DNA from: Gammaproteobacteria bacterium
Lineage (GTDB): Bacteria; Pseudomonadota; Gammaproteobacteria; Steroidobacterales; PWYM01
Reading direction: 5' to 3'
DNA length: 48,316 bases
Assembly (NCBI GenBank): GCA_007693855.1
Contig: RECU01000031.1
Coordinates: 1-48,316 of the forward strand
Below the pieces are notes generated by a model. The model was not told the DNA's origin. It ran no database searches and worked only from the letters and a program-made list of their open reading frames with translations. The first letter of the stretch is position 1. Each line of letters opens with the position of its first letter. This document shows, one piece after another, positions 2,922-16,941 of this stretch. Both the position numbers and the translations under genes were made by a program.

Positions 2922-3614
2922 TTACGTGCTCTCACTCGCGGCGCGGGCCTTGAGTCTGCGGGTGATGAGACTGCCCAGGCCGAGGAACAGTGCCAGCAGA
3001 AACAAGGGCAGTACTGTCGCCGTCCCAGGCGTTTCCTCGTCGAGGCCGCGCTGGAACAGGCCATGAATGGCCCAGCAGTACATGGCCCATTTCGGCAACA
3101 GGCCAACGACCGCCGCCAGCAGGTAGGTTGGCCACGACAGACGCAGCAGGCCCGCGCTGTAGTTGATGACACCGTGAGGAAAGCCCGGCAACGCGCGCAA
3201 CGCCGCCTGGGTGAAAAAATCGCTTCGCGTCGACAGGATCCGGAAAGTACGGTGGCCGGCGAGCCGCCGATGGACCGAATCGCCGAGGAACCCGGCCACG
3301 GCGTAGGCGGCCACTGCACCAAGCACGCTGCCGACCAGCATCAGCGCCGTTGCCACCAGCGGAGGGTAGAAGGGCGCCACCACCCAGACCACCAGGGTTC
3401 CCGGCAGGCTGAGCGCGAACAGCAGCACCTGGAGCAGCACCAGCATCGGCGCGGTCCAGGGTGACTCCGCAAGCGCTGAACCCCAGGCGATGGCATCACC
3501 ACGGTCCACCGGCTCCGTAAGCGCGAACCCGACACCCGCCACCAGCAGCAGCACCAGCAGCGCGAGCCGCCAGCGACGGCGAGAGGACGGCTGGCTGCGG
3601 TCGCCGGACGACAC
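2922..3614 (-). CDS. TVP38/TMEM64-type VTT (DedA-related) membrane protein
   Basis: Inner-membrane protein of about 230 aa with roughly six hydrophobic segments. The centre carries the VTT/SNARE-associated pattern: a re-entrant stretch around L-P-G-T-L-V-V-W, a G-S-V-L-G-A-V-A-A-Y segment, and R-A-L-P-G-F-P followed by N-Y-S-A-G-L. DedA/VTT relatives act as lipid or undecaprenyl-phosphate flippases or affect membrane potential; the precise job here is unknown. The frame is open to an ATG at 3689 inside the upstream Rid gene, but a GTG at 3612-3614 follows the Rid stop by 7 bp and removes a non-hydrophobic leader, so it is preferred. It sits in the middle of the D-amino-acid operon and may supply a transport step or be a passenger. 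Confidence 0.75.
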   Translation of the reverse strand: MSSGDRSQPSSRRRWRLALLVLLLVAGVGFALTEPVDRGDAIAWGSALAESPWTAPMLVLLQVLLFALSLPGTLVVWVVAPFYPPLVATALMLVGSVLGAVAAYAVAGFLGDSVHRRLAGHRTFRILSTRSDFFTQAALRALPGFPHGVINYSAGLLRLSWPTYLLAAVVGLLPKWAMYCWAIHGLFQRGLDEETPGTATVLPLFLLALFLGLGSLITRRLKARAASEST

Positions 3615-3621
3615 GTGACAC

Positions 3622-4185
3622 TCAGTCGCGCGGGTCGACGGTGGGGTCACGCACCCCGACGGCGGCCCGAGCCGCCGGGCGGACGGCAACGACCTCGATC
3701 TCCACCAGCCACCCGGGATTCACCAGGCCGGCGACCTGCATGACCGAGCGCGCCGGGAGATTCGGCTGGGCCTCCGTGCCGAAGAATTCGCTGTAGGCCT
3801 GCATGAAACCACGAAAGTCCATCTGCCCCTCCAGCGCCGGATCTCCGACCAGAAACACCTGCATCTTGACCACGTCGCCCATGCCGAGCTCTAGCCGCCG
3901 GAGTATTTCCTCGATGCGCACCAGTACGTTGGTGGTCTGCACGCGGGTATCGCCCCAGGCAGCCACAGTGTCGCGCGCCACCTCGGGATTGACCAGGCTC
4001 GGCACCTGCCCGCTGACATAAACGAGCGCGTGCCCCGGAGGAATTTCCACGGCCTGGGCGATCGGGAAGTCGGAGCCGGGGATCGGATAGCGGATCGGCG
4101 CGCTGAGCGGGTCGGCAAGGGCACCCCAGCTGAGCCCGCCAAGGGCGAGCGGGAGGAGACATCGAACAAGGCGGCGCATTGGCAT
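3622..4185 (-). CDS. exported RidA/YjgF/YER057c-family protein
   Basis: Rid-family protein of 187 aa. The N-terminus is a classical Sec signal peptide (M-P-M-R-R-L-V-R, a hydrophobic run, then W-G-A-L-A before D25), so the product is probably periplasmic. The Rid fold follows: V-Y-V-S-G-Q-V, a central N-V-L-V-R-I-E-E helix, and P-A-R-S-V-M-Q-V, where the Arg corresponds to the catalytic arginine of RidA that binds the carboxylate of imine/enamine substrates. RidA proteins hydrolyse reactive enamines released by PLP enzymes or finish ureide and pyrimidine breakdown (as in RutC). A strong GGGAGGAG site precedes the ATG. It lies between the deacetylase pair and the VTT protein; an exported Rid beside apparently cytosolic enzymes is odd. 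Confidence 0.85.
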   Translation of the reverse strand: MPMRRLVRCLLPLALGGLSWGALADPLSAPIRYPIPGSDFPIAQAVEIPPGHALVYVSGQVPSLVNPEVARDTVAAWGDTRVQTTNVLVRIEEILRRLELGMGDVVKMQVFLVGDPALEGQMDFRGFMQAYSEFFGTEAQPNLPARSVMQVAGLVNPGWLVEIEVVAVRPAARAAVGVRDPTVDPRD

Positions 4186-4208
4186 CGGAAACTCCTCCCG
4201 TCAGGGTT

Positions 4209-4236
4209 GGCGTCGGGTAGAAATCACCACGACGCC
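4209..4236. other. intercistronic stem-loop before the Rid gene
   Basis: GGCGTCG (4209-4215) and CGACGCC (4230-4236) are perfect complements, extended inward by GGT/ACC with one bulged A, leaving a 7-nt loop. It occupies most of the 67-bp gap between deacetylase A and the Rid gene. Neither strand has a following T-run, so it is not a typical terminator; an RNA-processing or partial attenuation site is possible. It is the largest gap inside the eight-gene cluster. Confidence 0.45.
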
Positions 4237-4252
4237 CGATCAGGTTGTCAGC

Positions 4253-5179
4253 TCAGCCTTGCGAACGCTGCCACTCCGTCAGGATATCCCGGCCGGTGGC
4301 TGGCCAGACACCCTCGTGGCCCAGCACATATTCCAATGCCCGCCGGAGGGCACGGATCCGGTAGGGCAACCCGCTGATGTAGGGTATCACCGGCAGACAC
4401 AGCACGCGCCCGCCGTGGTCGGCAGCCTCGGCGTAGAGGCAGTCGAAGGCGTCCTGCACCTGCTCGACGTACTCGTCTTCGGAGAAATGATAGTCGATGA
4501 GGATCTGGCGGTCCGAAAGCTCGGTGCTGTGCGGCATGGAATACAGGGTCGCACTGGATGTCTGCATCGCATAAGGCATGTCGTCGTTGACCCAGTCGCA
4601 GACATACTCCACGCCCCGCGCCGCCAGCAGGTCCGGCGTGACGAAAGACTCGCTCTTGGCCGGCGACAGCCAGCCGGTGACCGGTTGACCGGAGGCCGCG
4701 CGCAGCGTCGCCAGCGCCGTCTCGATCTGGCCGGCCTCTTCGGCCTCGTCCAGTCCGCCGTAGTGCAGGGCATCCATATCCACGCCATGCGCGATGACTT
4801 CCCAGCCGCGCCGTGTCACCTCCTCCAGCAGTGCCGGATATCGTTCGGCCACCACCGAGTTGAAGGCCACCGACGCGGGAATCTTCAGCTCGTCGAGCAC
4901 CTTGAAGATACGGTAGATGCCGACACGGTTACCGTAGTCCCGGGTGGTGTAGTGACGGAAATCCGGGTAAGGCGTGACCATGCTGCCAGGCGCCTTGAAG
5001 GGCTTGCCCGACGGGTTCAGCGGGAAGAATTCGAGTGCCGGCACCACCCACAAGGCGACCTTCGCGCCCTCCGGCCAGGCCGCCGGCTTGCGTTCGAACA
5101 GGTTGGAGAACGGGTAACGGTCGTGGTCCATGCCGTGGCGGCGCCACGGGTACTGGAGAAACTCTGCCGGCAGGGTCAT
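4253..5179 (-). CDS. polysaccharide-deacetylase-fold amidohydrolase A (PuuE/HpPgdA-like)
   Basis: NodB-homology-fold protein, 308 aa. The fold is shown by the D-Y-G-N-R-V-G segment (about 81-87), an A-H-G-V-D-M-D-A-L-H stretch near 130-139, G-W-L-S-P-A and a C-D-W-V-N-D-D block near 195. The usual catalytic T-F-D-D-G motif is absent; the first motif reads A-L-E-F-F, as in the PuuE-type allantoinases and HpPgdA-like group, which hydrolyse cyclic ureide or N-acyl bonds with little or no metal. It shares motif order and spacing with the next gene and is clearly a paralogue. The ATG overlaps the stop of that gene by 4 bp (ATGA), implying translational coupling. Substrate unknown; a cyclic or acylated amide is inferred from the neighbours. 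Confidence 0.8.
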   Translation of the reverse strand: MTLPAEFLQYPWRRHGMDHDRYPFSNLFERKPAAWPEGAKVALWVVPALEFFPLNPSGKPFKAPGSMVTPYPDFRHYTTRDYGNRVGIYRIFKVLDELKIPASVAFNSVVAERYPALLEEVTRRGWEVIAHGVDMDALHYGGLDEAEEAGQIETALATLRAASGQPVTGWLSPAKSESFVTPDLLAARGVEYVCDWVNDDMPYAMQTSSATLYSMPHSTELSDRQILIDYHFSEDEYVEQVQDAFDCLYAEAADHGGRVLCLPVIPYISGLPYRIRALRRALEYVLGHEGVWPATGRDILTEWQRSQG

Positions 5180-6096
5180 GTGCGTGCCTCCCCGGGCGTC
5201 ATGCCGAGCAGCGTGCAGGTGTCGGCATAATAGTGCGCGTAGTAGTAATCGGCGATCTCTTGCGCCGTGGTCACCCAGACGTCCTCATGGCTGGTGATGT
5301 ACTTCAACGCATCGGCGAAAGGCCCCACGCGATGCGGATGGCCTACCAGGTAGGCATGCAGCGGGATACACATCACCGTACCCGACTCCGCGCCCTCCTC
5401 GTAGAGCTGGTCGAACTGCATCTTGAGGATGTCACCGTAGCGCCGCGGGCTCATGAGGTAGCTGTTGTAGGCGATGACGTCGTTGACCTCCAGCGAATAC
5501 GGCATGGAAATCAGCCGGCCCTGCTGCACGTGGATGGGCTGGGGCTGGTCGTCCTGGAACAGGTCACAGGTGTACTTGATGCCATACTCGGCCAGCAGGT
5601 CGAAGGTGCGTTCGGTGTGCGTCAGCGCCGGCGCCAGCCAGCCGGCGATGCGCTGGCCGGTGGCGTCCATGACGGTCTTCAGCGCGTCTTCGATGATCGC
5701 GCGCTCCTGGGCCTCATCCATGCCATAGCAGTAGCGCGTGTTGTAAATGCCGTGCGAGAAGAACTCCCAGTCGCGTTCCACACAGGCCTGGATGATTTCA
5801 GGATGATGCTGGCACAGCGCCACGGAGAGCGAAATGCTCCCACGCACGCCGTATTTGTCCATCGCCTCCATCATCCGCCAATGGCCCACGCGGTTACCGT
5901 AGTCGCGCTGGGCGTAGTGCAGCACATCAGGGTTGGGCCGAGCCCAGGGCTTGCGCGAGGGATTCTGCGGCGGATCGAACTCGTAGTACTCGATGTTCGG
6001 CGCCACCCAGAAGGCGATACGTGCGCCGTTCGGCCAAGTGATTTTCGGCCGTCCCTGGTAGGGCCAGAACTCGTAGAGCTGGGGATCACGCATCAT
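5176..6096 (-). CDS. polysaccharide-deacetylase-fold amidohydrolase B (PuuE/HpPgdA-like)
   Basis: Paralogue of the downstream gene, 306 aa. Shared landmarks are W-P-N-G-A-R-I-A-F-W-V, the R-D-Y-G-N-R-V-G block, S-H-G-I-Y-N-T near motif 2, G-W-L-A-P-A and a C-D-L-F-Q-D-D block. The canonical NodB D-D and H-x3-H metal motifs are not seen; the first motif is N-I-E-Y-Y. No signal peptide, so cytoplasmic. The reading frame is open further upstream into the cysteine hydrolase, but family similarity begins at the double ATG at 6096/6093, 5 bp after the upstream stop. Two such proteins side by side may form a heteromer or act on two successive substrates. This is inference; the fold itself is secure. 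Confidence 0.8.
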   Translation of the reverse strand: MMRDPQLYEFWPYQGRPKITWPNGARIAFWVAPNIEYYEFDPPQNPSRKPWARPNPDVLHYAQRDYGNRVGHWRMMEAMDKYGVRGSISLSVALCQHHPEIIQACVERDWEFFSHGIYNTRYCYGMDEAQERAIIEDALKTVMDATGQRIAGWLAPALTHTERTFDLLAEYGIKYTCDLFQDDQPQPIHVQQGRLISMPYSLEVNDVIAYNSYLMSPRRYGDILKMQFDQLYEEGAESGTVMCIPLHAYLVGHPHRVGPFADALKYITSHEDVWVTTAQEIADYYYAHYYADTCTLLGMTPGEART

Positions 6097-6101
6097 GTGG
6101 A

Positions 6102-6773
6102 TCAGTCCCCACGCCAGTTTTCGAGGTAGTCGAACACCTCCTGGACACCGACGACGTCCGCATATTTCAACTGCAGGTCCGTCAGGTTCGCGAAGTGATA
6201 GCTCTCGTGCTTGTCGGCCACGCACTCCTCCGGGACGATCGTGCGGTAGCCGTGACTCAGGCTGTCGACACCGGCTGCTCGCACACACCCCGAGGTCGAG
6301 CCACCGGTCAGCACCAGGGTATCGATCTGGTGCCAGACCAGCAGCGACTGCAGGTTGGTTTCGTGGAACGGCGAGGGCATGCGCTTGTGCATGATGATGT
6401 CGCGCGTGCGATCGATGTTCAGCCGGTCATCGAACTCGGCACGCTCGGAGCCGTGCTTGATGTTCTGCAGCGAGTCCGGGGTGTCCGTGCGGGTGCCCCA
6501 GACGCCGGCATCTTCCCCTGACTCCATAAAGGCGACATAGGTCCAGATGACCGGCAGATTGCGCTCGCGAAACATCGCGGCGAGGCGGTCCACGTATTCC
6601 AACTGACGGGGGTCGGTCTGGTAGGCGGTCTTGAACTTGCCCACGGCCGTGTAGGCTTTCTGCAGGTCAATATTGACCAGCGCCGGGCGCTTGCCGAACC
6701 CAAAGCGCGCGCGCGCCGGGTTGGCCTTTACGTCTGCGAAGATCTGTCGCGCGGTCTTGTCGCTCGTCTCCAT
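6102..6773 (-). CDS. isochorismatase-fold cysteine hydrolase (N-carbamoylsarcosine amidase-like)
   Basis: Cysteine amidohydrolase of 223 aa with the full catalytic triad of the isochorismatase-like family: D36 (V-N-I-D-L-Q), K130 (M-H-K-R-M-P-S-P-F) and C163 (T-S-G-C-V-R-A). The G-G-S-T segment before the Cys is the usual cis-peptide turn. The triad and the family's roughly 30-residue N-terminal lead resemble N-carbamoylsarcosine amidase, RutB and maleamate amidohydrolases, all of which release ammonia (and CO2 for carbamoyl substrates) from C-N bonds. A good ribosome site (GGGGAG) precedes the ATG. It is the first gene of the catabolic cluster, 43 bp downstream of the antiporter module. With PuuE-like proteins next to it, hydrolysis of an N-carbamoyl or N-acyl amino acid is the most economical guess. 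Confidence 0.85.
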   Translation of the reverse strand: METSDKTARQIFADVKANPARARFGFGKRPALVNIDLQKAYTAVGKFKTAYQTDPRQLEYVDRLAAMFRERNLPVIWTYVAFMESGEDAGVWGTRTDTPDSLQNIKHGSERAEFDDRLNIDRTRDIIMHKRMPSPFHETNLQSLLVWHQIDTLVLTGGSTSGCVRAAGVDSLSHGYRTIVPEECVADKHESYHFANLTDLQLKYADVVGVQEVFDYLENWRGD

Positions 6774-6816: not shown

Positions 6817-8499
6817 TCACAGGTAATAAATCAACAGCGAGGCGGCCAGCAGGATGGCCACCCACAATACCATGCTGCCGGTCGGCCAGGTCCGGGCCAG
6901 AATGCCCTGTGGTCCATGATGCGCCGAGACCGATGTGACCAGCGCCGTCAGCTTGTGCATCAGCGTGCCCAGCATCGCCTGCCATGCTGCACCGCCCACG
7001 CGCTGTATGCCGCCAGCGATCGCCGGCATCGCCTTGCGATACACCCAGTCGGTATCGACGCTGATCTTGGGCTCACCGCCGACATGCTTCAGCAGCACAA
7101 AGAACCCGACCCCGGTGAACAGCAGCAACTGCAGCTCCCACAGGATGTGTCCCGAGGTATAGGCCTGGTATTCCACTGTCGCCGGCATCATCGCGTACAG
7201 CCACTGCGGATAGATCCCGATGAACACGCAGAAGAATGCCGCGATACCCATGGCGACCAGCATGTTCAACGGCGCCTCACGCGGCTTGAGGCCGCGGTCC
7301 GGGCCAAAGAACGTAAACCACGGCAGCTTCAGCCCGGTGTGCAGGAAGGTCCCGGCGGAGGCCAGCGACAGCAACAACCAGACCCAGGCGCGCTGATCCA
7401 GTGCCGCGGCCTCGACCACCATGGTCTTGCTGACGAAGCCGCTGAACAGCGGGAACGCGGAAATCGAGAACGCACCAATCATGTACAGCAGGAAGGTCAC
7501 TGGCATGTAGCGGTAGATGCCGCCCAGCTCGGTGAGCTTGGCCCGCCCCGTCATGTGAATGACCGCACCGGCGCCCATGAACAAGAGTGCCTTGTAGAGA
7601 ATATGCGTGAAGGCATGCGATGCGGCGCCGTTGAGCGCCATGATGGTACCCATCCCCACCCCGGCGACCATGTACCCGACCTGGCTGATGATGTGGTAGG
7701 CCAGCAGCCGCCGGATGTCGTTGGCCAGCACCGCATAGACCACGCCCCACAGGGCCATCACCACGCCCAGCCAGACGAGCAGCTCGGTGCCTGGGAATCC
7801 GCGGATCAGGGTATAGACGGCGGTCTTGGTGGTCAGCGCGCTGAGGAAGATCGCGCCGGTCACCGTCGATTCCGGATAGGCATCCGCGAGCCAGGCTCCA
7901 AGCGGCGGCACGGCCGCATTGAGCAGGAAGCCGATGAGAATCAGGTAGAACGCAAGCCCCGTATTCTCGATCTCGGCGAACTGCACGGTGCCGGCATCAA
8001 GATAGTAGAGGATGATACCGGCGAGCAGCACGATCCCACCCAGGGCATGGACCAGCAGGTAGCGGAACCCCGCGGCCATCGATGCCGGGTTACGCCGGCA
8101 CCAGATGAGCCATACCGAGGTGAAGACCATCAACTCCCAGAACACATAGAGCGTGACGAGGTCTCCGGCGAACACCACGCCTAGCGCCGAGCCGGCATAC
8201 ATCAGGGCCGCGACATGCTGCGGGGTGTCCTTCACATGCAGGGCATAGATCGCACCGACCAGGGTGATGATGGCGAACACCGAGGCAAAGACGAGACTGA
8301 GCTTGTCCACGCGCATCGGCGAGAGCTCGATCCCGAGGAATTCAGTCGCCCCGAACACACCGCTCGGCAGCGAGAACACCAGCCAGATCAGCGCGGCGGC
8401 CACCAGCAGCATCACGCCCTGCTGCAGCCGGCCACGCAGCACGGCCACCACCAGCGCGCCGGTGAACAGCAGGATGGAGGGGTGCAGCACCTCACTCAT
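6817..8499 (-). CDS. Mrp/Mbh-type antiporter, third MrpD-like subunit
   Basis: Proton-conducting transporter family (NuoL/M/N, MrpA/D) protein of 560 aa, about 14-16 membrane helices. Conserved points visible are the TM5 glutamate (Y-V-F-W-E-L), the TM8 lysine (T-T-K-T-A-V-Y) and a late-helix lysine (G-F-V-S-K-T). The TM7 position that usually carries Lys then P-x-H reads L-L-N-A-A-V-P-P-L-G-A-W, so both Lys and His are missing. A C-terminal extension of about 100 residues ends in one more hydrophobic helix. It is the last gene of the antiporter module, overlapping the 83-residue membrane protein by 8 bp. Probably one of three antiporter-like channels in a single complex; its own pumping ability is uncertain. 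Confidence 0.85.
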   Translation of the reverse strand: MSEVLHPSILLFTGALVVAVLRGRLQQGVMLLVAAALIWLVFSLPSGVFGATEFLGIELSPMRVDKLSLVFASVFAIITLVGAIYALHVKDTPQHVAALMYAGSALGVVFAGDLVTLYVFWELMVFTSVWLIWCRRNPASMAAGFRYLLVHALGGIVLLAGIILYYLDAGTVQFAEIENTGLAFYLILIGFLLNAAVPPLGAWLADAYPESTVTGAIFLSALTTKTAVYTLIRGFPGTELLVWLGVVMALWGVVYAVLANDIRRLLAYHIISQVGYMVAGVGMGTIMALNGAASHAFTHILYKALLFMGAGAVIHMTGRAKLTELGGIYRYMPVTFLLYMIGAFSISAFPLFSGFVSKTMVVEAAALDQRAWVWLLLSLASAGTFLHTGLKLPWFTFFGPDRGLKPREAPLNMLVAMGIAAFFCVFIGIYPQWLYAMMPATVEYQAYTSGHILWELQLLLFTGVGFFVLLKHVGGEPKISVDTDWVYRKAMPAIAGGIQRVGGAAWQAMLGTLMHKLTALVTSVSAHHGPQGILARTWPTGSMVLWVAILLAASLLIYYL

Positions 8500-8743
8500 C
8501 GTAGTAGTCCTCTGAGCGGTACAGCAGCAGGTAACCCAGCGCCTTGGACACGACGATGATCAGCACGCAGGAGATGAAACCGTAGAACGCCCCAAAGCCA
8601 CCGATGCTCTCCCAGGGAAAGCGGTCGTACTTCGAAGGCACCACGATGTCGGCGATCACCAGTCCGGCCAGCACGACATACATGATCCGGCGCAACAGCA
8701 CACCGCGCTCCACCATCGCCTGCAGCAGTCTGCCCAAATCCAT
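8492..8743 (-). CDS. small two-helix membrane protein of the antiporter module
   Basis: Protein of 83 aa with two hydrophobic segments (about 20-36 and 48-72) and an acidic C-terminus ending S-E-D-Y-Y-D-E. I do not recognise a named family. It overlaps the next MrpD-like gene by 8 bp and follows the second by 33 bp, so it is translationally tied to the complex and probably a subunit or assembly factor. The W-E-S-I-G-G-F-G-A-F-Y-G stretch between the helices looks conserved in style and is a good search handle. Confidence 0.7.
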   Translation of the reverse strand: MDLGRLLQAMVERGVLLRRIMYVVLAGLVIADIVVPSKYDRFPWESIGGFGAFYGFISCVLIIVVSKALGYLLLYRSEDYYDE

Positions 8744-8776
8744 CTCAGTTCACTCCGTCATCGGCCCGTGCGGCGC

Positions 8777-10252
8777 TCAGCCGCCCGCCACCGCCAGGTA
8801 GGGCCGCAGCAGCTCAGCCAGCGGACCGGCCAGCACGAACAGTGCAAGGCAGCCCAGCGCCGTCAGACTGAGCGGCACGACGCACAGCACGGGCGCCTCG
8901 CGAACGCCACCGGTCTGCTCGCTCTCCGGCGGCGGCAGCAGGAACGCCCGCACCACCGGTGGAATGAGGTAGGCGATATTCAGCAAAGTACTGACGATGA
9001 GCGCCAGCACCACCAGTTGATACCCGGAGTCATAGGCGCCCATGAACAGGTGCCACTTGCTCCAGACCCCGCCCATCGGCGGCACACCGATCACGCACAG
9101 CGCGCCGATGAAAAACGCAAAGAAGGTCACCGGCATGCGTCGACCCAGCCCGTTCATGTCACTGATCTCGGTCTTCTTGGTCGCGACATAGATCGCACCG
9201 GCACAGAAGAACAGGGTGATCTTGCCGAACGCATGCATGACGATATGCATGGCGCCGCCCAAGGCCGCGAACTCGCTGACCAGCATCGCCGCAGCGACAA
9301 TGTAGGACAGCTGGCTGACGGTCGAATAGGCCAGACGTGCTTTGAGATTATCCTGCTGCATGGCGACCAGAGAGGCGGCCAGCAGCGTGAACACCGCAAT
9401 ATAGAGAATGAGCTCACTGGTGGCGAGCTCTCGCAGGTAATCCAGCCCGAACAGGTAGACGCTGACCTTGAGCACGGTAAAGACACCGGCCTTGACCACC
9501 GCCACCGCGTGCAGCAGGGCAGAGACCGGCGTAGGCGCCACCATCGCCGAGGGCAGCCAGCGGTGGAACGGCATCAACGCCGCCTTGCCGATGCCGTACA
9601 TGAACAGCACCAGCAGAATGGCGCCTATGGCGGGATCGACGCGGCCAGCCATGATGCCGCCCGGCGTGAACTCCAGGGTGCCGGTCAGCCACCAGGTGGC
9701 GATGACGGCGGGCAACAGCAGACCGACGGAGGTCCCAAGCAGCAGCCCGAGATAGGTCCGGGCGCCCTTCTTGGCGGCCTCGTTGCCCTTGTGCGCCACC
9801 AGCGGATAGGTGGAGAGCGTCAGCACCTCGTAGAACACGAACAGTGAAAACATGTTCGCCGAGAATGCGATGCCTGTGGCACTGAACAGCGCGATACAGA
9901 AAAAGACATGGAAGCGCGTGTGGTGGAGCTCCTTGGCACCACGCATGTAGCCGATCGCATACAGTGCCGTGATGATCCACAGGCCCGAGGCCAGCAGCGC
10001 GAACACCATCCCCAGCGGCTCGACCACGAACGCGATCTCGAGCCCCGGAAACAGCTCCAGCAGCGTGGCCGAGGGCCGCTGACCGTCACGCACACGCGGC
10101 AGCAGCTGCAGCACCACGCTGAACATCACCGCCGCCGTGGTGACCACCAGAGCATCGCGCAGCCCGGCCCAGCGGCTGGTCGCCATCAGGGCGAACATGC
10201 CGATCAGCGGCACCGCCAGCGCAAGATAGATCAGGGTGGCGTCGCTTACCAT
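8777..10252 (-). CDS. Mrp/Mbh-type antiporter, second MrpD-like subunit (MrpA-N/NuoL-like)
   Basis: Proton-conducting transporter family, 491 aa, about 14 helices. It has the TM5 glutamate (F-V-F-Y-E-V), the TM7 lysine and histidine (G-K-A-A-L-M-P-F-H-R-W-L-P), and an H-A-V-A-V-V-K-A-G-V segment. The H-A-x(3)-V-K-A-G signature is typical of NuoL and the N-terminal half of MrpA rather than MrpD, so this protein may stand in for the missing MrpA N-terminal domain. It overlaps the first MrpD-like gene by 7 bp. Inner membrane; expected to exchange Na+ (or K+) for H+ within the complex. Calling it MrpA-like rather than MrpD-like is inference from this signature. Confidence 0.85.
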   Translation of the reverse strand: MVSDATLIYLALAVPLIGMFALMATSRWAGLRDALVVTTAAVMFSVVLQLLPRVRDGQRPSATLLELFPGLEIAFVVEPLGMVFALLASGLWIITALYAIGYMRGAKELHHTRFHVFFCIALFSATGIAFSANMFSLFVFYEVLTLSTYPLVAHKGNEAAKKGARTYLGLLLGTSVGLLLPAVIATWWLTGTLEFTPGGIMAGRVDPAIGAILLVLFMYGIGKAALMPFHRWLPSAMVAPTPVSALLHAVAVVKAGVFTVLKVSVYLFGLDYLRELATSELILYIAVFTLLAASLVAMQQDNLKARLAYSTVSQLSYIVAAAMLVSEFAALGGAMHIVMHAFGKITLFFCAGAIYVATKKTEISDMNGLGRRMPVTFFAFFIGALCVIGVPPMGGVWSKWHLFMGAYDSGYQLVVLALIVSTLLNIAYLIPPVVRAFLLPPPESEQTGGVREAPVLCVVPLSLTALGCLALFVLAGPLAELLRPYLAVAGG

Positions 10253-11733
10253 GACTGCGGCACCCCCAGCAGCGCTTCGGCCGCGTTACGGGCGGCAGCG
10301 ACCGGGAACTGCGCCCAGACACCGAACACAATCGTCGAACCCGTCAGCACCCAGGTCGGCACCAGCAGGGCGAGCGGCGCCTCGCGAAGCTCGCGGGCGT
10401 CTTCCGGCGGGGCACGGAAATAGGCCGCCTCCACCACTTTCCAGATATAGACCGCGGCGATCAGCGAGGTGGCGAGCAGCAACGCCACCACTGGCCAGAA
10501 GCCTTCCATCAGCGCCGCCTGCAGGAGATACCACTTGGTGACGAAGCCGGCGGTCAGCGGCACCCCGATCAGACTCAGGCCAGCCACGACGAACGCCGCC
10601 ATGGTCCAGGGCATACGCTCGGCGGCCCCAGCCATGCGCGTCAGCGACACACCGCCCAGGCGATACACCAGGCAGCCCACCGCCATGAACAGCGCCGCCT
10701 TGGTGATGGCATGGTTGAACAGGTGCAGCACCGAGGCCATCAAGCCGAGCGCACTGGCGAAGCTGATCCCCAGGATCATGTAGCCCACCTGGGCGACGCT
10801 GGAATACGCGAGCAGCCGCTTCACATCGTCCTGGAACACGGCGATCAGCGATGGAATCACGATACCCAGCAGCGCCAGCGGCATCAGCACCCAGGCCATC
10901 GACAGCTCGACGAAGCTGAACTCGAAGCCGAAGACGGTGTAGACAAAACGCAGGAGCACGTAGATCGCCACCTTGGTGGCGGTCGCCGACAGGAATACGG
11001 TCACCATCGACGGGGCGTAGCTGTACGCGTTGGGTAACCACAGGTGCAGCGGGAACAGCGCCAGCTTGAGCGAAATGCCCACAGCAATGAAACCGAACGC
11101 GGCGCGGATGGTACGCGTATCGGTGACCTCCGGCAGGCGGGCCGCCAGATCACCGAGGTTGAGCGTGCCCGTCATGATGTATAGAAAGCCGATACCGATC
11201 AGCAGGAAGGTGGTGCCGATCGTGCCCATGATCAGGTACTGGTAGGACGCCAGCACCGCACGGCGATCACGCCCCATCGCGATCAGGGCATAGGAGGCGA
11301 TGGCGGAGATCTCGAAGAACACGAAGATATTGAACGCATCGGCGGTGATGGCGATCCCGAGCAAACCGGCATTGGCCAACAGGAACGCCGAGTAGAACAG
11401 GCCGATGCGATCGGCCGGAATCTCCTGCTCCACGCTGCGTCGCGCAAACGGCATGACCACGGCGCTGACGAGCCCGATGATCAGCAGCACCCAGGCGTTG
11501 GCGCCATCGACGCGATACTCGATACCCCAGGGCGGCGCCCAGCCCCCCATCTCGTAGTGGATCGCACTGCCATCCAGGACCTGGAGAAGCAGCAGCACGG
11601 CCACCAGCAGCGTGGCCCAGCAGGTCACCAGGGTCACGCCCCAGGCGACGCGCGGCAGCCGGTTCAGCAGCATGACCAGGGGGGCGGCGGTCAGCGCGAT
11701 CACCACCTGGAGTGCAGGCAAATGTTCGCTCAC
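10246..11733 (-). CDS. mrpD: Mrp-type Na+/H+ antiporter subunit D
   Basis: Protein of 495 aa, about 14 helices, and the most canonical MrpD of the three. Features are the TM5 glutamate (F-V-F-F-E-I-S-A-I-A-S-Y), the TM7 lysine with P-L-H-L-W-L-P, the TM8 lysine in T-A-T-K-V-A-I-Y, and a late lysine in F-V-T-K-W-Y. Its start overlaps mrpC by 4 bp (ATGA), as usual in mrp operons. It provides one of the antiporter-like proton paths of the complex; in a high-salt or high-pH habitat the complex would expel Na+ at the cost of proton entry. Assignment is firm at family level; ion specificity is not visible. Confidence 0.9.
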   Translation of the reverse strand: MSEHLPALQVVIALTAAPLVMLLNRLPRVAWGVTLVTCWATLLVAVLLLLQVLDGSAIHYEMGGWAPPWGIEYRVDGANAWVLLIIGLVSAVVMPFARRSVEQEIPADRIGLFYSAFLLANAGLLGIAITADAFNIFVFFEISAIASYALIAMGRDRRAVLASYQYLIMGTIGTTFLLIGIGFLYIMTGTLNLGDLAARLPEVTDTRTIRAAFGFIAVGISLKLALFPLHLWLPNAYSYAPSMVTVFLSATATKVAIYVLLRFVYTVFGFEFSFVELSMAWVLMPLALLGIVIPSLIAVFQDDVKRLLAYSSVAQVGYMILGISFASALGLMASVLHLFNHAITKAALFMAVGCLVYRLGGVSLTRMAGAAERMPWTMAAFVVAGLSLIGVPLTAGFVTKWYLLQAALMEGFWPVVALLLATSLIAAVYIWKVVEAAYFRAPPEDARELREAPLALLVPTWVLTGSTIVFGVWAQFPVAAARNAAEALLGVPQSW

Positions 11734-12083
11734 TGTGGGTCGTCCTGCTGGTGGATATCGTCTTCTTCAATCGAGCCATAGGCCTCGTGGATTCTCACCA
11801 CGAGCGCAAGCCCCATGGCCGTCAGCGCCACCCCCACGACGATGGCCGTGAGGATGAGCACGTGCGGCAGGGGGTTGGCGTAGTCTGTGACTCCCGGCAG
11901 GGCGATCGGTGCGGTGCCGCCTTCCCGCCAGGCCAGGCTGATGAAAAAAATGAACGCCGAGGTCTGGAAAATATTCAGCCCGACGATCTTCTTTACCAGA
12001 TTGCCCTGGGCGATCACGATGTAAAACCCGATCATCATCAGCACGACGACGATCCAGTAGTTATACAGGCCAAGCAGGGTCAT
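11730..12083 (-). CDS. mrpC: Mrp-type Na+/H+ antiporter subunit C (NuoK-like)
   Basis: Three-helix NuoK/MrpC-family protein of 117 aa. The conserved V-K-K-I-V-G-L-N-I-F-Q-T-S segment after helix 1 and the N-P-L-P-H-V-L-I-L-T-A-I-V-V-G stretch before the last helix are diagnostic. It overlaps mrpB by 4 bp upstream and mrpD by 4 bp downstream. It forms part of the membrane coupling module between the MrpA C-terminal domain and MrpD. Confidence 0.92.
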   Translation of the reverse strand: MTLLGLYNYWIVVVLMMIGFYIVIAQGNLVKKIVGLNIFQTSAFIFFISLAWREGGTAPIALPGVTDYANPLPHVLILTAIVVGVALTAMGLALVVRIHEAYGSIEEDDIHQQDDPQ

Positions 12084-12502
12084 TCTTCCGACCTCCGCCC
12101 GGCGAACGAGTAGAACAGCGTCAGACCTACGGCTGCCACCGTGATGCCGACACCCAGCTCGATCCCGATGATGCCGAAGGTCTCACCGGCCTGGTCGTTG
12201 GGCAGCAGCACCTTGTATTCGAGGAAATTGCCACCGAGAAACATGCTCGCGAATCCGAACGCGGCGAACAGCAGCACCCCGATGGCCGACAGCGCGTGCG
12301 CGGCCTCCGGCGGAATCGCCTTCTGGGCGGCATCCAGGCCGTACAGCAGCGTGTAGACGACAAAGGCCGCCGTGAACACGATGCCTGCCTGGAACCCCCC
12401 GCCGGGGCTGTATTCACCGTGGAATTGCACATAGAACGCGAAAATCAGGATCATCGGGATCATCAAGCCACTGACGACCCTGAGCACGATGTAGCGGTTC
12501 AT
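12080..12502 (-). CDS. mrpB: Mrp-type Na+/H+ antiporter subunit B
   Basis: MnhB/MbhF-family membrane protein of 140 aa with four hydrophobic segments. The signature H-G-E-Y-S-P-G-G-G-F-Q-A-G-I (about 28-41) is a hallmark of MrpB. The frame is open far upstream through the previous gene, but that stretch is Arg/Gly-rich out-of-frame sequence; the real start is the ATG at 12500-12502, which overlaps the upstream stop by 4 bp. Role: structural and coupling subunit of the antiporter complex. Confidence 0.92.
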   Translation of the reverse strand: MNRYIVLRVVSGLMIPMILIFAFYVQFHGEYSPGGGFQAGIVFTAAFVVYTLLYGLDAAQKAIPPEAAHALSAIGVLLFAAFGFASMFLGGNFLEYKVLLPNDQAGETFGIIGIELGVGITVAAVGLTLFYSFAGRRSEE

Positions 12503-13080
12503 GGCGTCTCGTCCTCCTGACGCGAACGCGCAGCGGTTTTCGCCCTGCGCCCACGGACCGAGCCACTGCCCAATACCAGCAGCACGCCCACAGCCGCGGC
12601 GAACACCACCACCGCCTCTCCAAGGGTATCGATCCCGCGGTAACTGGCCAGCACGGAAGTCACCATGTTCGGAATACCGATTTCCTCGGGAGACTCCTGG
12701 GTAAAGCGCGGCGAGAGGTGGGCATGCGCGGGCGCCTCGGGATCGCCGAACAGCGGCATGTCCAGGGTGGCGTAAATCAACGCCGCACCCGTGATCGCCA
12801 CCACCACCAGCGCCAGCAGATTGTGGCGCACGCGGTGGCGTCGCTCCTCCTGCGTCGTCAGGGCAATGGTCCCCAGCATCAGGATCACCATCAGACCGGC
12901 GCCGACCGCCGCCTCGGTCAGGGCGACGTCCGGGGCGTCCATCAGCACGAACAGCACGGCGACGACCAGGCTGTAGATGCCCGTCAGCATGGTCACGGCC
13001 AGCAGGTTGCGGATGCGCACGATCGCGATCGCGATGATCGCGAGGAACGTCAGCAGGACGATGTCGATCAGCGCTTCGAT
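12499..13080 (-). CDS. MbhD/MbhE-like protein (stand-alone C-terminal part of MrpA, DUF4040)
   Basis: About 193 aa. The first half matches DUF4040/MbhD (V-R-I-R-N-L-L-A-V-T-M followed by D-A-P-D-V-A-L-T-E-A-A-V-G-A-G). The second half resembles MbhE (H-L-S-P-R-F, then P-N-M-V-T-S-V-L-A-S-Y-R-G-I-D-T-L-G-E). In ordinary Mrp operons both are fused to the end of MrpA; here they form a separate gene. Start: no ATG, GTG or TTG occurs before a GTG at 13020, which would cut off most of helix 1. GGGAGGT at about 13086-13092 lies five bases before an ATC at 13078-13080 that opens a fitting N-terminus (I-E-A-L-I-D-I-V-L-L). I therefore suggest an AUC start; the conservative start is 13020. Confidence 0.8.
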   Translation of the reverse strand: MEALIDIVLLTFLAIIAIAIVRIRNLLAVTMLTGIYSLVVAVLFVLMDAPDVALTEAAVGAGLMVILMLGTIALTTQEERRHRVRHNLLALVVVAITGAALIYATLDMPLFGDPEAPAHAHLSPRFTQESPEEIGIPNMVTSVLASYRGIDTLGEAVVVFAAAVGVLLVLGSGSVRGRRAKTAARSRQEDETP

Positions 13081-13397
13081 GACGCACCTCCCGGCGCTCG
13101 ACGCCAGGGCTCGAGATGATCATGCCGCGCGGCCTTGGCCAGCGCGTGAGCGGCCGTCGGGCCCGTGAACAACAGAAAAGCGAGCGTGAACAGCAGTTTC
13201 GCGGCCACCGGGATGCTGTCGGCCTGCAGCGCGAGACCCAGCAGGATCAGGATCGAGCACAGCGTGTCGGTCAGACCTGCCGCCTGGATACGCGAGTAGA
13301 AATCCGGCATCCGGACAAGCCCGAGACCACCGACCACCAACAGTGCGGAACCGGCCAGCAACAGGGCCCAGCTCAGGATATCCAGCACCATGGCCAT
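13068..13397 (-). CDS. mrpG: Mrp-type Na+/H+ antiporter subunit G
   Basis: MnhG/MbhC-family protein of 109 aa with three helices. The R-M-P-D-F-Y-S-R-I-Q-A-A-G-L-T-D-T motif (about 29-45) is diagnostic, and P-T-A-A-H-A-L-A-K-A-A follows the last helix. It overlaps mrpF by one base upstream and the next gene by about 13 bp if that gene starts at the proposed ATC. Small scaffold subunit near the periphery of the complex. Confidence 0.92.
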   Translation of the reverse strand: MAMVLDILSWALLLAGSALLVVGGLGLVRMPDFYSRIQAAGLTDTLCSILILLGLALQADSIPVAAKLLFTLAFLLFTGPTAAHALAKAARHDHLEPWRRAPGGASSKR

Positions 13398-13696
13398 CAG
13401 CGCTCCTCCCCGGTCTGGTCCATCTCCTCAGCCGGCGCACCGGCAAGGCTCCCGGATTCAAACACACGCAGCACCGCGATGATGCCGATGTAATTCAGCA
13501 GGGCGTAGACGATAGCGATATCGATGAACTCCGGACGCCCGGTGATGAAGCCGACGACCGCGATCATCAGCACGGTCTTGGTGCCGACCACGTTCACGGC
13601 GAGGATGCGGTCATGGATGGTCGGACCGATGAAGGCCCGGGCCAGCGCCATGCCAAGGGTGACGAGAATCGCGAGCGCTACGGCGAAGAACATCAT
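13397..13696 (-). CDS. mrpF: Mrp-type Na+/H+ antiporter subunit F
   Basis: MnhF/MbhB-family three-helix protein of 99 aa. The P-T-I-H-D-R-I-L-A-V-N-V-V-G-T-K segment (about 25-40) is the family signature, and the third helix contains D-I-A-I-V-Y-A-L-L-N-Y. The double ATG at 13696 overlaps the mrpE stop by 4 bp. Ends in an acidic tail (E-E-M-D-Q-T-G-E-E-R). Part of the membrane scaffold with MrpE and MrpG. Confidence 0.92.
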   Translation of the reverse strand: MMFFAVALAILVTLGMALARAFIGPTIHDRILAVNVVGTKTVLMIAVVGFITGRPEFIDIAIVYALLNYIGIIAVLRVFESGSLAGAPAEEMDQTGEER

Positions 13697-14178
13697 GACA
13701 GCCGATCCTCGAAGCGCAGCACGCGGCGATTCATCTCACCGGTCTCGAGGTCATCGACCACCTCGGGCAGCAGAGCGTAGTACTCGATGTAATCCTTGGT
13801 GACCTGCAGCGTGACGGTGCCGGGGGTGAGCGTGATGGAATTCGCCATGATGGCCCGGCCGACGTGGGTCCGCTGCAGCGTCTGCAACCGGGCGATACGC
13901 GGGTCGATCGCGTCGCGCCCGGCCAGGATCCGGCGGGCGACCAGCAGATTGGCAAGCACGATCTGCCCGAGCAACCACGGCCAGTAGCGCAGTGCCGCGG
14001 GGACCATGTGAAAGACCTCAGTGTCACGCCCCAGCAAGTCCATGCGCGCGACCAGCCAGACCGTCACGATCACCGACGCCACGCCCAGGGACAGAATGAG
14101 GGGGTAAGTCCACATCCCCGAGAACAGCAGCCAGACGATGGCCAGCAGCACTGTCAGACTGATCACGTACCTGGACAC
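13693..14178 (-). CDS. mrpE: Mrp-type Na+/H+ antiporter subunit E
   Basis: MnhE/MbhA-family protein of 161 aa: two N-terminal hydrophobic segments and a cytoplasmic domain. The family block M-A-N-S-I-T-L-T-P-G-T-V-T-L (about 111-124) is intact. The GTG at 14178 is chosen because GGGAG stands 7 bases upstream and the protein then starts directly with its first helix (S-R-Y-V-I-S-L-T-V-L-L). The frame stays open to 14523 but that part has no membrane or domain character. First gene of the antiporter module; the promoter must lie in the intergenic region shared with the ectoine regulator. Confidence 0.9.
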   Translation of the reverse strand: MSRYVISLTVLLAIVWLLFSGMWTYPLILSLGVASVIVTVWLVARMDLLGRDTEVFHMVPAALRYWPWLLGQIVLANLLVARRILAGRDAIDPRIARLQTLQRTHVGRAIMANSITLTPGTVTLQVTKDYIEYYALLPEVVDDLETGEMNRRVLRFEDRLS

Positions 14179-14555: not shown

Positions 14556-15128
14556 ATGAACGAGTACGAAAACAACAGTGATCAAAATAGTTTGCGCACC
14601 GGTTCGCGCCCCGAAGATGCGGGTCGCGACGGCGGCAGCGGCCACGAGTGGGCAGCCCGGGATGTTCGGGTAATGTCCGCGGTCCGCCACTTCCGCGTCG
14701 TGGTGCGGGCCGTCCAGGCCCATTCCAGCTGGGTGGAGCGCCAATGCGGCGTGACCGCCGCCCAGCTCTGGGCCCTGTGGGAGGTCTTCCGGGAGCCTGG
14801 CCTCAGGGTCTCGGACATCTCCCGACGCTTGTCGATCAAGCCGGCCACCGCGAGCAATCTCCTCGACAAGATCGAGGCCAAGGGACTGGTTCGCCGGGAG
14901 CGCCGTGGTCCGGACCAGCGCGTAGTCAGGCTGTTTCCCACGGATGACGGCGCGCGGCTGCTGGCCAGGGCGCCACGGCCGGCCGAAGGCGCTCTGCTCG
15001 ACGCCCTCACCCGCCTGGATGACCAGCAACTCGAGGCGCTCAACGGCAGTCTCGAAGCGCTGGTCGACATCCTGCGCGTCAAGGAGGAGGGATCGGCGTT
15101 GTCGCCGATCGTGCCCTCAGGGAACTGA
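14556..15128 (+). CDS. ectR: MarR-family regulator of the ectoine operon (EctR-like)
   Basis: MarR-type winged-helix protein of 190 aa. The first ~40 residues are polar and unusual (N-N-S-D-Q-N, G-G-S-G). The MarR core begins near M40-S-A-V-R-H-F; the recognition helix is S-I-K-P-A-T-A-S-N-L-L-D-K-I (about 105-118) and the wing is R-R-E-R-R-G-P-D-Q-R. It probably binds the inverted repeat over its own promoter. The ATG at 14556 leaves almost no leader; the ATG at 14673 is an alternative that would remove the extension. Placed 81 bp before ask and in the same direction, it most likely senses osmotic state and represses ectoine synthesis, as EctR1 does in methylotrophs. Confidence 0.8.
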   Translation: MNEYENNSDQNSLRTGSRPEDAGRDGGSGHEWAARDVRVMSAVRHFRVVVRAVQAHSSWVERQCGVTAAQLWALWEVFREPGLRVSDISRRLSIKPATASNLLDKIEAKGLVRRERRGPDQRVVRLFPTDDGARLLARAPRPAEGALLDALTRLDDQQLEALNGSLEALVDILRVKEEGSALSPIVPSGN

Positions 15129-15209
15129 CGCATCTCATCGCCCCGGGCTCCCCTGCCCGCGGGACCTTACTTGCCACAACAGACAGACAACAAAAGGCTC
15201 ACGAAGCAC

Positions 15210-16412
15210 ATGAACATCATCGTTCAGAAGTACGGCGGCTCATCGCTCGCCGAAGACAGCAAACTGCGCGCCGTGGCGCAACGCATCGCCGAGACGCGCC
15301 GCAGCGGCGCCGGGCTCGTGGTGGTGGTCTCCGCCATGGGCGATACCACCAGCCGCTTGCTCGCGCATGCCGGTCGCCTCAACGCGACGCCGGAGCATCG
15401 CGAGCTGGACATGCTGCTCGCCGCCGGCGAACAGAAATCGGCCTCCCTGCTGTCCCTCGCCCTGCACGACCTCGACATCGAGGCGGTGGCGCTGACCGGG
15501 GCACAGGCCGGCGTCTGCACCTGCGAGGCACACTTGAATGCCCGTATCCGCAAGGTCGATCCGACACGGATGCACCGCGAGGTCGCAGCCGGTCGTGTGG
15601 TGGTCGTGGCCGGCTTCCAGGGCGCGAGCCCGGCGGGCGACATCACCACACTGGGCCGGGGCGGCTCTGACACGACCGCGGTTGCCATTGCCGCCGCCGT
15701 GGGGGCCAGCCGCTGCGAGATCTACTCGGACGTCGATGGGGTCTACACCGCCGACCCGCGTGTGGTCCCGGAGGCCACCCGTCTGCGCATGCTCAGTCTG
15801 ACCGAAATGAAAGTGCTGGCGCACCACGGCTCCGGCGTGCTCAACGAGCGGGCCATCGATTACGCCCTCGAGCATGGGGTCACGATCCACGCGCGGCGGG
15901 CCCACGGCGACGGCGGCCAGACGATCGTCCGCACCGAACAGGGCACCGGTGGCCGCACCCGCATCGCCGGCATTGCCACCCATGCCGCGCTGCTGCGGAT
16001 CGATTTCACGGAACTCGCTGATCGTGCGGCGCTTGGCGAACTGCTGGACGAATACGACAGCTTCGCACCGGAGCTCGCCCTCGGGGGTCGCGGCCTGTAT
16101 CTGTTGCCTACTGACCAGCTGGCCGACGTGCCCGGGCTCTGCGAGGTGATCAAGGCGCGCTGCGGTGAGGGTGTTCAGGTCCACGGTACTGTCGCGTCGG
16201 TGTCCGCCGTCGGCCGCCAGGCCGGACGCGACCCGGGCACGCTTGCCTTTGCGCAACAGCTGCTGTCGGCGCAGCAGATCACGGTCCATCACGCCTTCGC
16301 CACCGAGCACGCAGTGACCTGCCTGGTACCCGAAGAGGCGCAGGCGAAGGCGGCCCAGGTTTTCCACGCCGGCTTCCGAATCGCCGATACCGGAGTGGCC
16401 GATGTCGCCTGA
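15210..16412 (+). CDS. ask: aspartate kinase, ectoine-operon type
   Basis: Aspartokinase of 400 aa phosphorylating L-aspartate to aspartyl-phosphate, the first step toward aspartate semialdehyde and ectoine. It shows the K-Y-G-G-S-S motif at about 7-12, G-R-G-G-S-D-T-T near 150, and S-D-V-D-G-V-Y-T-A-D-P-R near 173-184, followed by ACT-type domains. The frame opens at a TTG at 15171, but similarity to aspartokinases starts at M-N-I-I-V-Q-K-Y, so the ATG at 15210 is used. A dedicated, feedback-insensitive kinase (Ask_Ect) is often linked to ectABC, usually downstream; here it precedes ectA and overlaps it by 11 bp. Confidence 0.88.
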   Translation: MNIIVQKYGGSSLAEDSKLRAVAQRIAETRRSGAGLVVVVSAMGDTTSRLLAHAGRLNATPEHRELDMLLAAGEQKSASLLSLALHDLDIEAVALTGAQAGVCTCEAHLNARIRKVDPTRMHREVAAGRVVVVAGFQGASPAGDITTLGRGGSDTTAVAIAAAVGASRCEIYSDVDGVYTADPRVVPEATRLRMLSLTEMKVLAHHGSGVLNERAIDYALEHGVTIHARRAHGDGGQTIVRTEQGTGGRTRIAGIATHAALLRIDFTELADRAALGELLDEYDSFAPELALGGRGLYLLPTDQLADVPGLCEVIKARCGEGVQVHGTVASVSAVGRQAGRDPGTLAFAQQLLSAQQITVHHAFATEHAVTCLVPEEAQAKAAQVFHAGFRIADTGVADVA

Positions 16413-16941
16413 AGCGCTGGCCAGAACGCCTGCACCGGACGTCCGCTTCCGTGCGGCACGGCCCGAAGATGGCGCCGCCATGTGGCAGCTCGTGCACGAC
16501 ATGGGCGGCCTCGAGCTCAACACCGCGTACTTCTACGTGCTGTTCTGCATCGACTTCGCCGAGACCTGCGTCGTGGCCGAGACGCCAGACGGCCGCATGG
16601 CCGGTTTCGTGCTTGGCCACCGCCCTCCTGCACGGCCGGATACCGTGTTCGTCTGGCAGGTTGGCGTGGCGCCCTGGATGCGCCGGCAGGGCCTCGCGGG
16701 ACGACTGCTCGAGGCACTGCTCGGTCAGCAGTCACGCCCCGCACGCTGGCTCGAGGCCACCGTAAGCCCCGACAACAGCGCCTCGATGCAGCTGTTCCGC
16801 GCCCTTGCCCGCAGCCGCGGTGTGCGCTGCGAGGAAAGCGACTTCATGCCCGCCAGACTCTTTCCCGGCGATCACGCGGCCGAGCGACTGTTTCGCATCG
16901 GCCCCCTGAATTCAATACCAGCACAGGAACAAACATCATGA
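16402..16941 (+). CDS. ectA: L-2,4-diaminobutyrate gamma-acetyltransferase
   Basis: GNAT-fold enzyme of 179 aa that acetylates L-2,4-diaminobutyrate to N-gamma-acetyl-diaminobutyrate. The EctA pattern L-E-L-N-T-A-Y-F-Y-V-L (about 36-46), the acetyl-CoA loop R-R-Q-G-L-A-G-R-L-L (about 93-102) and V-S-P-D-N-S-A-S are present. The start overlaps ask by 11 bp and the end overlaps ectB by 4 bp (ATGA), so the three genes are translationally coupled. Second enzyme of the ectoine pathway proper. Confidence 0.93.
   Translation: MSPEALARTPAPDVRFRAARPEDGAAMWQLVHDMGGLELNTAYFYVLFCIDFAETCVVAETPDGRMAGFVLGHRPPARPDTVFVWQVGVAPWMRRQGLAGRLLEALLGQQSRPARWLEATVSPDNSASMQLFRALARSRGVRCEESDFMPARLFPGDHAAERLFRIGPLNSIPAQEQTS

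Follow-up and report, generated by a model that had tools for sequence, protein, structure and literature searches.

Group 3 Mrp antiporters are defined as lacking mrpA and carrying one or more mrpD genes (PMC8415708). Here, we describe a ten-gene Mrp-type cluster on contig RECU01000031.1 of a gammaproteobacterial genome assembly (GCA_007693855.1). The whole stretch of DNA that was analysed, 48,316 nucleotides, is called the window. The genes lie on its minus strand, from position 14178 down to 6817, in the order E-F-G-(MbhD/E)-B-C-D1-D2-s-D3, in which MbhD/E is the C-terminal part of MrpA, D1, D2 and D3 are antiporter-like proteins and s is a small gene that precedes D3. Stand-alone Mrp clusters with a D3-family protein are a known and widespread kind. 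From the gene content and order, the conservation, the residues, the phylogeny and a natural fusion, found in a relative, that joins D3 to the C-terminal part of MrpA, we consider it rather probable that the window encodes a stand-alone group 3 Mrp-type antiporter in which the work of the N-terminal half of MrpA is divided between D2, as the proton path, and D3, as a brace.

All counts over 80 loci come from the best 80 of at least 580 stretches of named genomes with an encoded relative at E ≤ 1e-3, among which other antiporter-like proteins may be included. The stand-alone mrpEFGBB'CD cluster of P. furiosus (PMC8415708) is like the window in that E-F-G come first, a fused MbhD+MbhE is separate and neither mrpA nor a redox module is present, but it contains only one D and none of D2, s and D3, and is in effect a shorter version. 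In the group 3 Mrp of 'Ca. Nitrospira alkalitolerans' two further NuoM/NuoL-like genes follow mrpD and were read as extra mrpA/mrpD-like genes (PMC7784846). The likeness to the window is one of description; mrpA is named among its seven genes, and the small gene, the fusion and the residue differences are not mentioned in the part of that paper available to us. Given this description, the layout in the window is probably not new. On a plasmid of Halomontanus rarus (L132) the order is the same, E-F-G-DUF4040-B-C-D1-D2-D3, except that s is missing and D2 has a His-rich insert.

In 'green' complex I, NuoL is replaced by two MrpD-like subunits (PMC9040806, citing Degli Esposti and Martinez Romero 2016). 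A plasmid cluster of Ensifer canadensis (L125), NuoJ-NuoK-D2-s-D3-NuoM-NuoN followed by NuoA-G, is of this type; its s is annotated 'hypothetical protein'. It shares with the window the D2-s-D3 order and an Asn in helix 7 of D3, but nuo genes surround the trio and no Mrp E, F, G or B is listed beside it. Canonical group 1 Mrp (solved structures 6z16 and 7qru, and an operon on contig C65 of the source genome) has the MrpA C-terminal part, B, C, E, F and G families in common with the window, but differs in its single-protein MrpA, its two antiporter-like subunits and the clades of its D proteins. The Mbh and Mbs complexes of P. furiosus resemble the window in the gene order of the cation module, in that their MbsH and MbhH are nearest to D1 and in that MbsH' groups with D3 in a quick tree; unlike them, the window shows neither a hydrogenase nor a sulfane reductase gene in the scanned ORFs around the cluster.

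Gene content and class membership

The run starts with an MrpE homologue [161 amino acids (aa), GTG start; 13693..14178; Pfam MNHE, E = 3.5e-25], followed by homologues of MrpF (99 aa; 13397..13696; MrpF_PhaF, 4.3e-18) and MrpG (109 aa; 13068..13397; PhaG_MnhG_YufB, 3.7e-24). The separate MrpA C-terminal part (12499..13083; DUF4040) matches MbhD (1.1e-15) and MbhE (1.2e-6) in Pfam and exceeds the cut-off of NCBIfam model PRK12504. Its start is uncertain: a GTG at 13020 would give 173 aa, and the likeness to relatives reaches ∼13083, where the codon is GTC. The MrpB homologue (12080..12502; MnhB, 2.5e-27) and the NuoK-like MrpC homologue (117 aa; 11730..12083; Oxidored_q2, 8e-23) exceed the cut-offs of PRK12508 and PRK07375.1-6, respectively. 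The three Proton_antipo_M (PF00361) proteins are D1 (495 aa; 10246..11733; 6.5e-61), D2 (491 aa; 8777..10252; 1.2e-51) and D3 (560 aa; 6817..8499), with the open reading frame (ORF) of s (83 aa; 8492..8743) before D3. Their best NCBIfam models are PRK12662, PRK08375.1-1 and PRK12668; only D3 exceeds its cut-off (716.6 bits versus 564). All ten genes overlap or are separated by short gaps. An MrpA N-terminal half lost through a frameshift was considered and rejected, as each D gene is a single open frame.

The ORF list and the Pfam and NCBIfam matches confirm the order and span given in the first-pass annotation, and the gene content supports its description of an Mrp-type complex with a split MrpA in Mbh-like order. 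Its comparison with haloarchaeal mrp clusters is borne out by the H. rarus plasmid, apart from the small gene. It had also found no hydrogenase or NADH module, and indeed neither these nor other redox families occur among the ten neighbouring ORFs scanned (2925–6773 and 14556–19373), nine of which match non-redox families. The claim that no MrpA N-terminal half exists is true of the cluster, but a complete 781 aa MrpA, which that annotation had named as contrary evidence, is encoded on contig C65 in a separate mrp operon with B, C, D, F and G matches. The organism is therefore not MrpA-less, and the lack of an N-terminal half in the cluster itself is unchanged.

As every type of Mrp subunit except the MrpA N-terminal half is found in one same-strand run, the cluster is of the Mrp type. 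By the published description of group 3 (PMC8415708, PMC5703873) it belongs there: the cluster has no mrpA, three Proton_antipo_M genes and a separate C-terminal part, and all other subunit types are present in the irregular order E-F-G-(MbhD/E)-B-C. It is distinct from canonical group 1 and 2 Mrp, since the operon has no full-length mrpA and no D falls into the MrpD clade. It is likewise distinct from green complex I, as the D2-D3 pair follows D1 instead of lying between NuoK and NuoM and no nuo gene is found among the scanned neighbours, and from Mbh, as these neighbours include no NiFe hydrogenase module. A chance arrangement is excluded because the same order recurs in stand-alone clusters of several phyla and on the named haloarchaeal plasmid.

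In an 88-row tree made with a quick method, D1, D2 and D3 form three clades (supports 98, 97 and 100), apart from those of MrpD (100; five rows), MrpA (99) and NuoL (99). The three proteins thus do not all group tightly with MrpD, an outcome that the first-pass annotation had considered. The D2 rows form a clade of their own beside C29_Db, and MrpA, NuoL and HyfD are separate (98), so that D2 falls outside the MrpA/NuoL clade. D3 groups with MbsH' (91). A sequence search of the PDB gives MbsH, MbhH and then MrpD as nearest to D1, which together with its residues marks it as a subunit of the MbhH/MbsH/MrpD type; NuoL/NdhF types and then MbsH are nearest to D2, and MbsH' and MrpA to D3.

D3 as the proposed counterpart of the MrpA N-terminal half

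The AlphaFold2 model of D3 (mean predicted local distance difference test score, pLDDT, 89.3, with lower values in the tail) consists of the antiporter core followed by a 45-residue helix (residues 484–528; 6916..7050; pLDDT there ∼59–81) and a last helix (residues 533–559; 6823..6903). The long helix is a candidate for the bracing helix HL. The fold is that of MrpA and NuoL: Foldseek ranks MrpA (7qru_A) first for this model, with an E value of 2.7e-23, and in VIA-align MrpD and NuoL chains tie at Z ≃ 45, NuoL being aligned over more residues.

A relative provides a natural fusion. In a Nitrospirota metagenome-assembled genome (MAG; L115), D3 (PRK12668, 691 bits) precedes MbhD and MbhE within a single 765 aa protein at 10001–12295 (+), and the operon is otherwise canonical, D2-s-[D3-MrpA-C]-B-C-MrpD-E-F-G. 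Here, D3 with its fused tail occupies the place of MrpA. The first-pass annotation had suggested that the second D may replace the MrpA N-terminal half. D2 does have the NuoL/MrpA-type motif on which this was based, but the long helix known from MrpA and NuoL and the L115 fusion belong to D3, which for this reason matches the place of MrpA better than D2 does. The MrpA/NuoL position of D3 in the window is thus predicted from the long and last helices of the model and from the fusion in this one relative.

In 23 of 32 stand-alone rows the segment with the bracing helix, taken between two anchors in D3, is 51–53 residues long, and it is uniform in the proteobacterial stand-alone forms. It is about 19 residues longer in green complex I (70–72 in 24 of 25 rows; 97 in L084). 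Further rows with no assigned setting have 52–54 residues (ten rows of the class of the window) or 44–101 (six rows).

Residues of the proton path

Residue columns were anchored on Glu144, Lys229, His254 and Lys399 of Escherichia coli NuoL. D1 of the window has the helix-5 Glu and the Lys residues of helices 7, 8 and 12; the Glu and the helix-7 and helix-12 Lys are present in 32/32 relatives and the helix-8 Lys in 29/32. In D2, the helix-5 Glu, the helix-7 Lys and the NuoL-type helix-8 His are found in 75 of 78 relatives, the other three being gapped; the window D2 itself carries this His together with all the remaining proton-path residues compared. The H-A-x3-V-K-A-G motif noted in the first-pass annotation is indeed present in this protein, at residues 248–256 (9485..9511), with its His aligned to NuoL His254.

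D3 differs at one position. Codon 194 (7918..7920), which is aligned with E. coli NuoL Lys229, NuoM Lys234 and NuoN Lys217 of helix 7, encodes Asn, and in 81 rows (the window and the 80 loci) this column contains Asn 70 times, Lys ten times and Ser once; a mixed alignment of 73 rows has Asn 56, Lys 16 and Ser 1. Among the other antiporter-like references only MbsH lacks this Lys. Mutation of the helix-7 Lys in NuoL, NuoM or NuoN led to loss of function (PMC3046159), as did K223A in MrpA and K219A in MrpD of B. pseudofirmus (PMC5703873), the equivalence of these two residues to the helix-7 Lys being taken from their numbering. In the MrpA C-terminal part, the equivalents of Asp792 and Glu796 are kept in 27/27 relatives.

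The small protein s

The window s has no match in NCBIfam (limit 1e-5), Pfam (0.01) or the PDB (10), and relaxing the limit gives a best Pfam E value of 0.015. When 28 relatives were compared with Pfam, no single family matched more than three of them, and the lowest E value was 1.7e-4 (NnrU), in one relative. By sequence, s is detected in 75 of the 80 loci. In the genomes of the class it lies immediately upstream of D3 at 51 of 54 D3 places, and D3 is found beside 51 of 53 s places; the exceptions are a genome split over contigs (counted on both sides), a D3 that lacks s, a D3 that is only partial and a weakly matching s. No second copy of s is present in the source genome.

In the window, s overlaps the start of D3 by 8 nucleotides, and the same overlap is seen in 54 of the 75 loci, assuming the nearest possible D3 start codon, which suggests coupled translation. 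Part of the sequence conservation at the end of s is due to this overlap. The ratio of nonsynonymous to synonymous substitution rates between the window s and that of L045 is 0.20, and is still 0.20 when the last three codons are removed. By these sequence measures s is a conserved family and no stray ORF. Its structure model (mean pLDDT 82.9, predicted template modelling score 0.50) has two helices, residues 3–34 and 50–74, as in a two-helix membrane protein. A fusion of s to D2 in haloarchaea was considered and rejected, as the ∼90 extra residues of D2 (in one plasmid) are a His-rich stretch with no similarity to s. In a Scalindua MAG (L100, 2636–3068, +) two adjoining s-like matches are located between D2 and D3.

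Distribution and origin of the D2-s-D3 block

The D3 family (PRK12668) is present at E ≤ 1e-100 in 51 of the 274 genomes sampled from the class, with 49 of the 274 exceeding the curated cut-off, and in none of 14 control genomes. The closest of the best 80 loci is L045, a gammaproteobacterial MAG with a D3 86% identical to that of the window; its sample, to judge by the sample code, presumably came from a soda lake. A gene-content rule divides the 80 loci into 32 stand-alone Mrp, 39 complex I and nine in neither class. L115 was moved by hand from green complex I to Mrp, so that the counts become 33, 38 and 9; the D2 and D3 trees still show it as green complex I, and the nine unclassed rows, two of which have NuoH or NuoJ upstream and one of which (L048) looks rearranged, are left out of both. 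Plasmid records matching s number 99 (Sinorhizobium 67, Rhizobium 18, Ensifer 11, Phyllobacterium 2 and Pararhizobium 1), and these genus counts equal those of the rhizobial D3 records when totals are compared. At E ≤ 1e-60, two plasmid D3 records are found beyond the rhizobial ones, both haloarchaeal.

Some loci have other arrangements. In L120 (Gemmatimonadota) and L109 (Bacteroidota) the entire Mrp cluster is flanked by a nuoL-nuoM pair on one side and a nuoN-like gene on the other. In two Desulfobacterota-type MAGs (L074 and L075) stand-alone clusters have B placed after E, and MbhD and MbhE are two genes.

In denser trees, the green-complex rows (including L115) form one group, with supports of 94 (D2) and 96 (D3), nested among stand-alone rows. 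When the stand-alone forms are forced together in trees with an outgroup and with L115 excluded, the approximately unbiased (AU) test rejects this at p = 0.032 for D2 and 0.022 for D3; as the groups were named after viewing the dense trees, these values are weaker than they appear, and long branches are present, with a long-branch warning for the D3 set. It is likely, but not proven, that the block passed from Mrp to complex I. The D2 and D3 of L115 group with two Nitrospirota green-complex rows (supports 100 and 97), and its block would probably have moved later from complex I into a canonical Mrp operon. With L115 scored as Mrp, the D3 tree needs two changes of setting, compared with one under the old label.

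A mosaic origin, with s and D3 from green complex I and D2 from Mrp, was hinted at by phmmer scores. It was dropped because the denser D2 and D3 trees agree and both put the window with proteobacterial Mrp. In a sparser first tree a green complex I row from Gallionella is the neighbour of the window D3, which in a sparse but careful D3 tree is not firmly placed among the D3 groups.

Proposed mechanism and alternatives

In the antiporter that we propose, an inward proton gradient would drive the expulsion of Na+ (or K+). On the pattern of the solved Mrp structures, MrpC and the cation module, made up of E, F, G, B and the C-terminal part of MrpA, would lie beside D1, with D2 next and D3 at the far end, and the long C-terminal helix of D3 would run back along D2 and D1 and brace the row. 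D2 would provide a proton path via its helix-5 Glu, its helix-7 and helix-12 Lys and its NuoL/MrpA-type helix-8 His. D3 would act as the brace and, with no helix-7 Lys, would conduct protons poorly or differently. The small protein s would be an extra subunit, made together with D3 and probably packed at D2 or D3. The role in the host would be Na+ and pH homeostasis. Antiport, the placing of each protein, this division of labour and the role of s are what we infer from the observations above.

Several observations weigh against this model. The helix-5 Glu and the helix-8 and helix-12 Lys of D3 are kept in 80/80 relatives, so a modified proton path is possible. The helix-7 Lys does occur in D3: nine of the ten rows that have it form one clade with support 100, the tenth not being in the tree, and in a 17-row alignment of the window's own class Lys (13 rows) is commoner than Asn (four). 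As the Lys rows form one clade and two changes at this residue suffice over the D3 tree, Asn looks ancestral, but this depends on the sample. In a B. subtilis complementation test, growth with MrpA-K196A or NuoL-K229A was near that of the originals at 80 mM NaCl; for MrpA-K196A this held at 200 mM too, and at 800 mM the lag was longer (PMC4938563). In the MrpA C-terminal part the equivalent of Glu706 is missing (Gly in 22 of 27 relatives, a gap in four and Pro in one), and a Glu is found four residues earlier in 22 of the 27 (four gaps, one Asn). The bracing-helix segment ranges from 44 to 96 residues in the other nine stand-alone rows, eight of which, where antiporter-like genes were listed, have the same D1-D2-D3 again; on this spread, its length was rejected as a strict count of antiporter subunits and remains a regularity. 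The small gene is not found in five of the 80 loci, two of which start at D3, and is absent from the haloarchaeal plasmid cluster. Finally, L115 shows that D3 is able to hold the place of MrpA but is no direct evidence of this for the window. The grouping of the L115 block with rows of green complex I and the prevalence of Lys in the class sample slightly lower the weight that we give to the model.

The strongest competitor is that all three D subunits conduct protons, so that about one more H+ would pass per turnover than in an ordinary Mrp, with stronger Na+ export at high pH. The Glu and Lys residues kept throughout D3, the D3 clade with the helix-7 Lys and the prevalence of this Lys in the class sample fit such a complex, and both MrpD-like subunits of green complex I are counted as pumps by the authors of PMC9040806. 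The window D3 and 69 of its 80 relatives, however, have Asn in place of a Lys whose mutation inactivated NuoL, NuoM and NuoN (PMC3046159), and we regard three conducting subunits as unlikely, though worth serious consideration.

That the ten proteins are instead the membrane arm of a hydrogenase-like or complex I-like redox enzyme, with its electron module encoded elsewhere, is very improbable. The Mbh-like order, the presence of D2-s-D3 in green complex I, a NiFe large-subunit gene on contig C25 and the position of the L109 and L120 clusters between nuoM and nuoN all point that way. Against this, the cluster has each of E, F, G, B and C, and the scanned neighbours contain no redox family. The NuoL, NuoM and NuoN of the genome are on contig C93, and a genome-wide profile search found no antiporter-like gene on C25. 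Leaving aside L109 and L120, the 32 loci first classed as stand-alone show no further NuoL/M/N-like gene in the stretches covered (redox genes were not searched for there). Equally hard to sustain is a separate D2-s-D3 complex sharing its operon with a one-D Mrp: P. furiosus has a stand-alone mrpEFGBB'CD with no extra genes, the deletion of which affects growth with pH (PMC8415708), and D2, s and D3 shift as one unit from one operon type to another, but L115 has D3 and the MrpA C-terminal part in one protein, the trio takes the place of NuoL in green complex I and the ten window genes overlap or sit close together.

Genomic context

Left of the operon, the scanned ORFs are of the VTT-domain, RidA, polysaccharide deacetylase (two) and isochorismatase types. 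Two adjoining genes in this part of the window (4253–6288, −) are weakly like allantoinase PuuE, both below the cut-off, and match polysaccharide deacetylase in Pfam. To the right, and divergent from the Mrp operon, genes for a MarR-type protein, aspartokinase, EctA and EctB (ectoine synthesis) lie at 14556–18215 (+), followed by an ORF with no match (18435–19373). The ectoine genes and the Mrp operon are likely to be two salt-stress systems placed back to back, and the adjoining ectoine genes indicate that the host is probably salt-loving. Elsewhere in the window, a 1094 aa open frame at 33624–36908 (−) has no NCBIfam match at 1e-20. A scan of the window for terminators and promoters gave counts near the shuffle mean, and Rfam and tRNA scans of it gave no matches.

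The source genome comprises 3.28 Mb in 114 contigs, in which a profile search finds eleven antiporter-like proteins: three in the window, NuoL, NuoM and NuoN on C93, MrpA and MrpD on C65 and three on C29. Contig C29 (L013) contains the third Mrp-like cluster of this genome, with E-F-G, a 422 aa MbhD+MnhB fusion, C, D, a D2-like protein and a 938 aa antiporter-like protein, and adjoins a gene for a DctP-type binding protein. The 938 aa protein is extended at its N terminus by several hundred residues, and it has Ala where the helix-5 Glu would be.

Implications

In the full-text literature searched, in which few subscription papers were covered and no search was directed at the fusion, we found no description of s, of the Asn in helix 7 of D3 or of the D3–MrpA-C fusion. 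A broader proposal, which we put forward tentatively as possible rather than probable, is that D2-s-D3 is a transferable split of the MrpA N-terminal half and NuoL, with a conducting D2, a largely non-conducting brace D3 and s as a third, undescribed subunit, that arose in Mrp, entered complex I and in one lineage or more (L115) returned to replace the canonical MrpA N-terminal half. If this is true, green complex I would gain no full extra proton pump, contrary to what has been proposed, and the Lys clade of D3 would be a single later regain.

The family touches on two open questions, the coupling of the proton gradient to sodium transport in Mrp and the number of pumping subunits in relatives of complex I. 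Beside nearly every D3 copy seen lies a conserved small membrane protein, the window copy of which has no Pfam or NCBIfam match at the thresholds used. In an antiporter as well as in a respiratory enzyme, the family also provides naturally matched variants of D3 that have or lack the helix-7 Lys, and it makes testable the published view that complex I gains proton pumping from two MrpD-like subunits.

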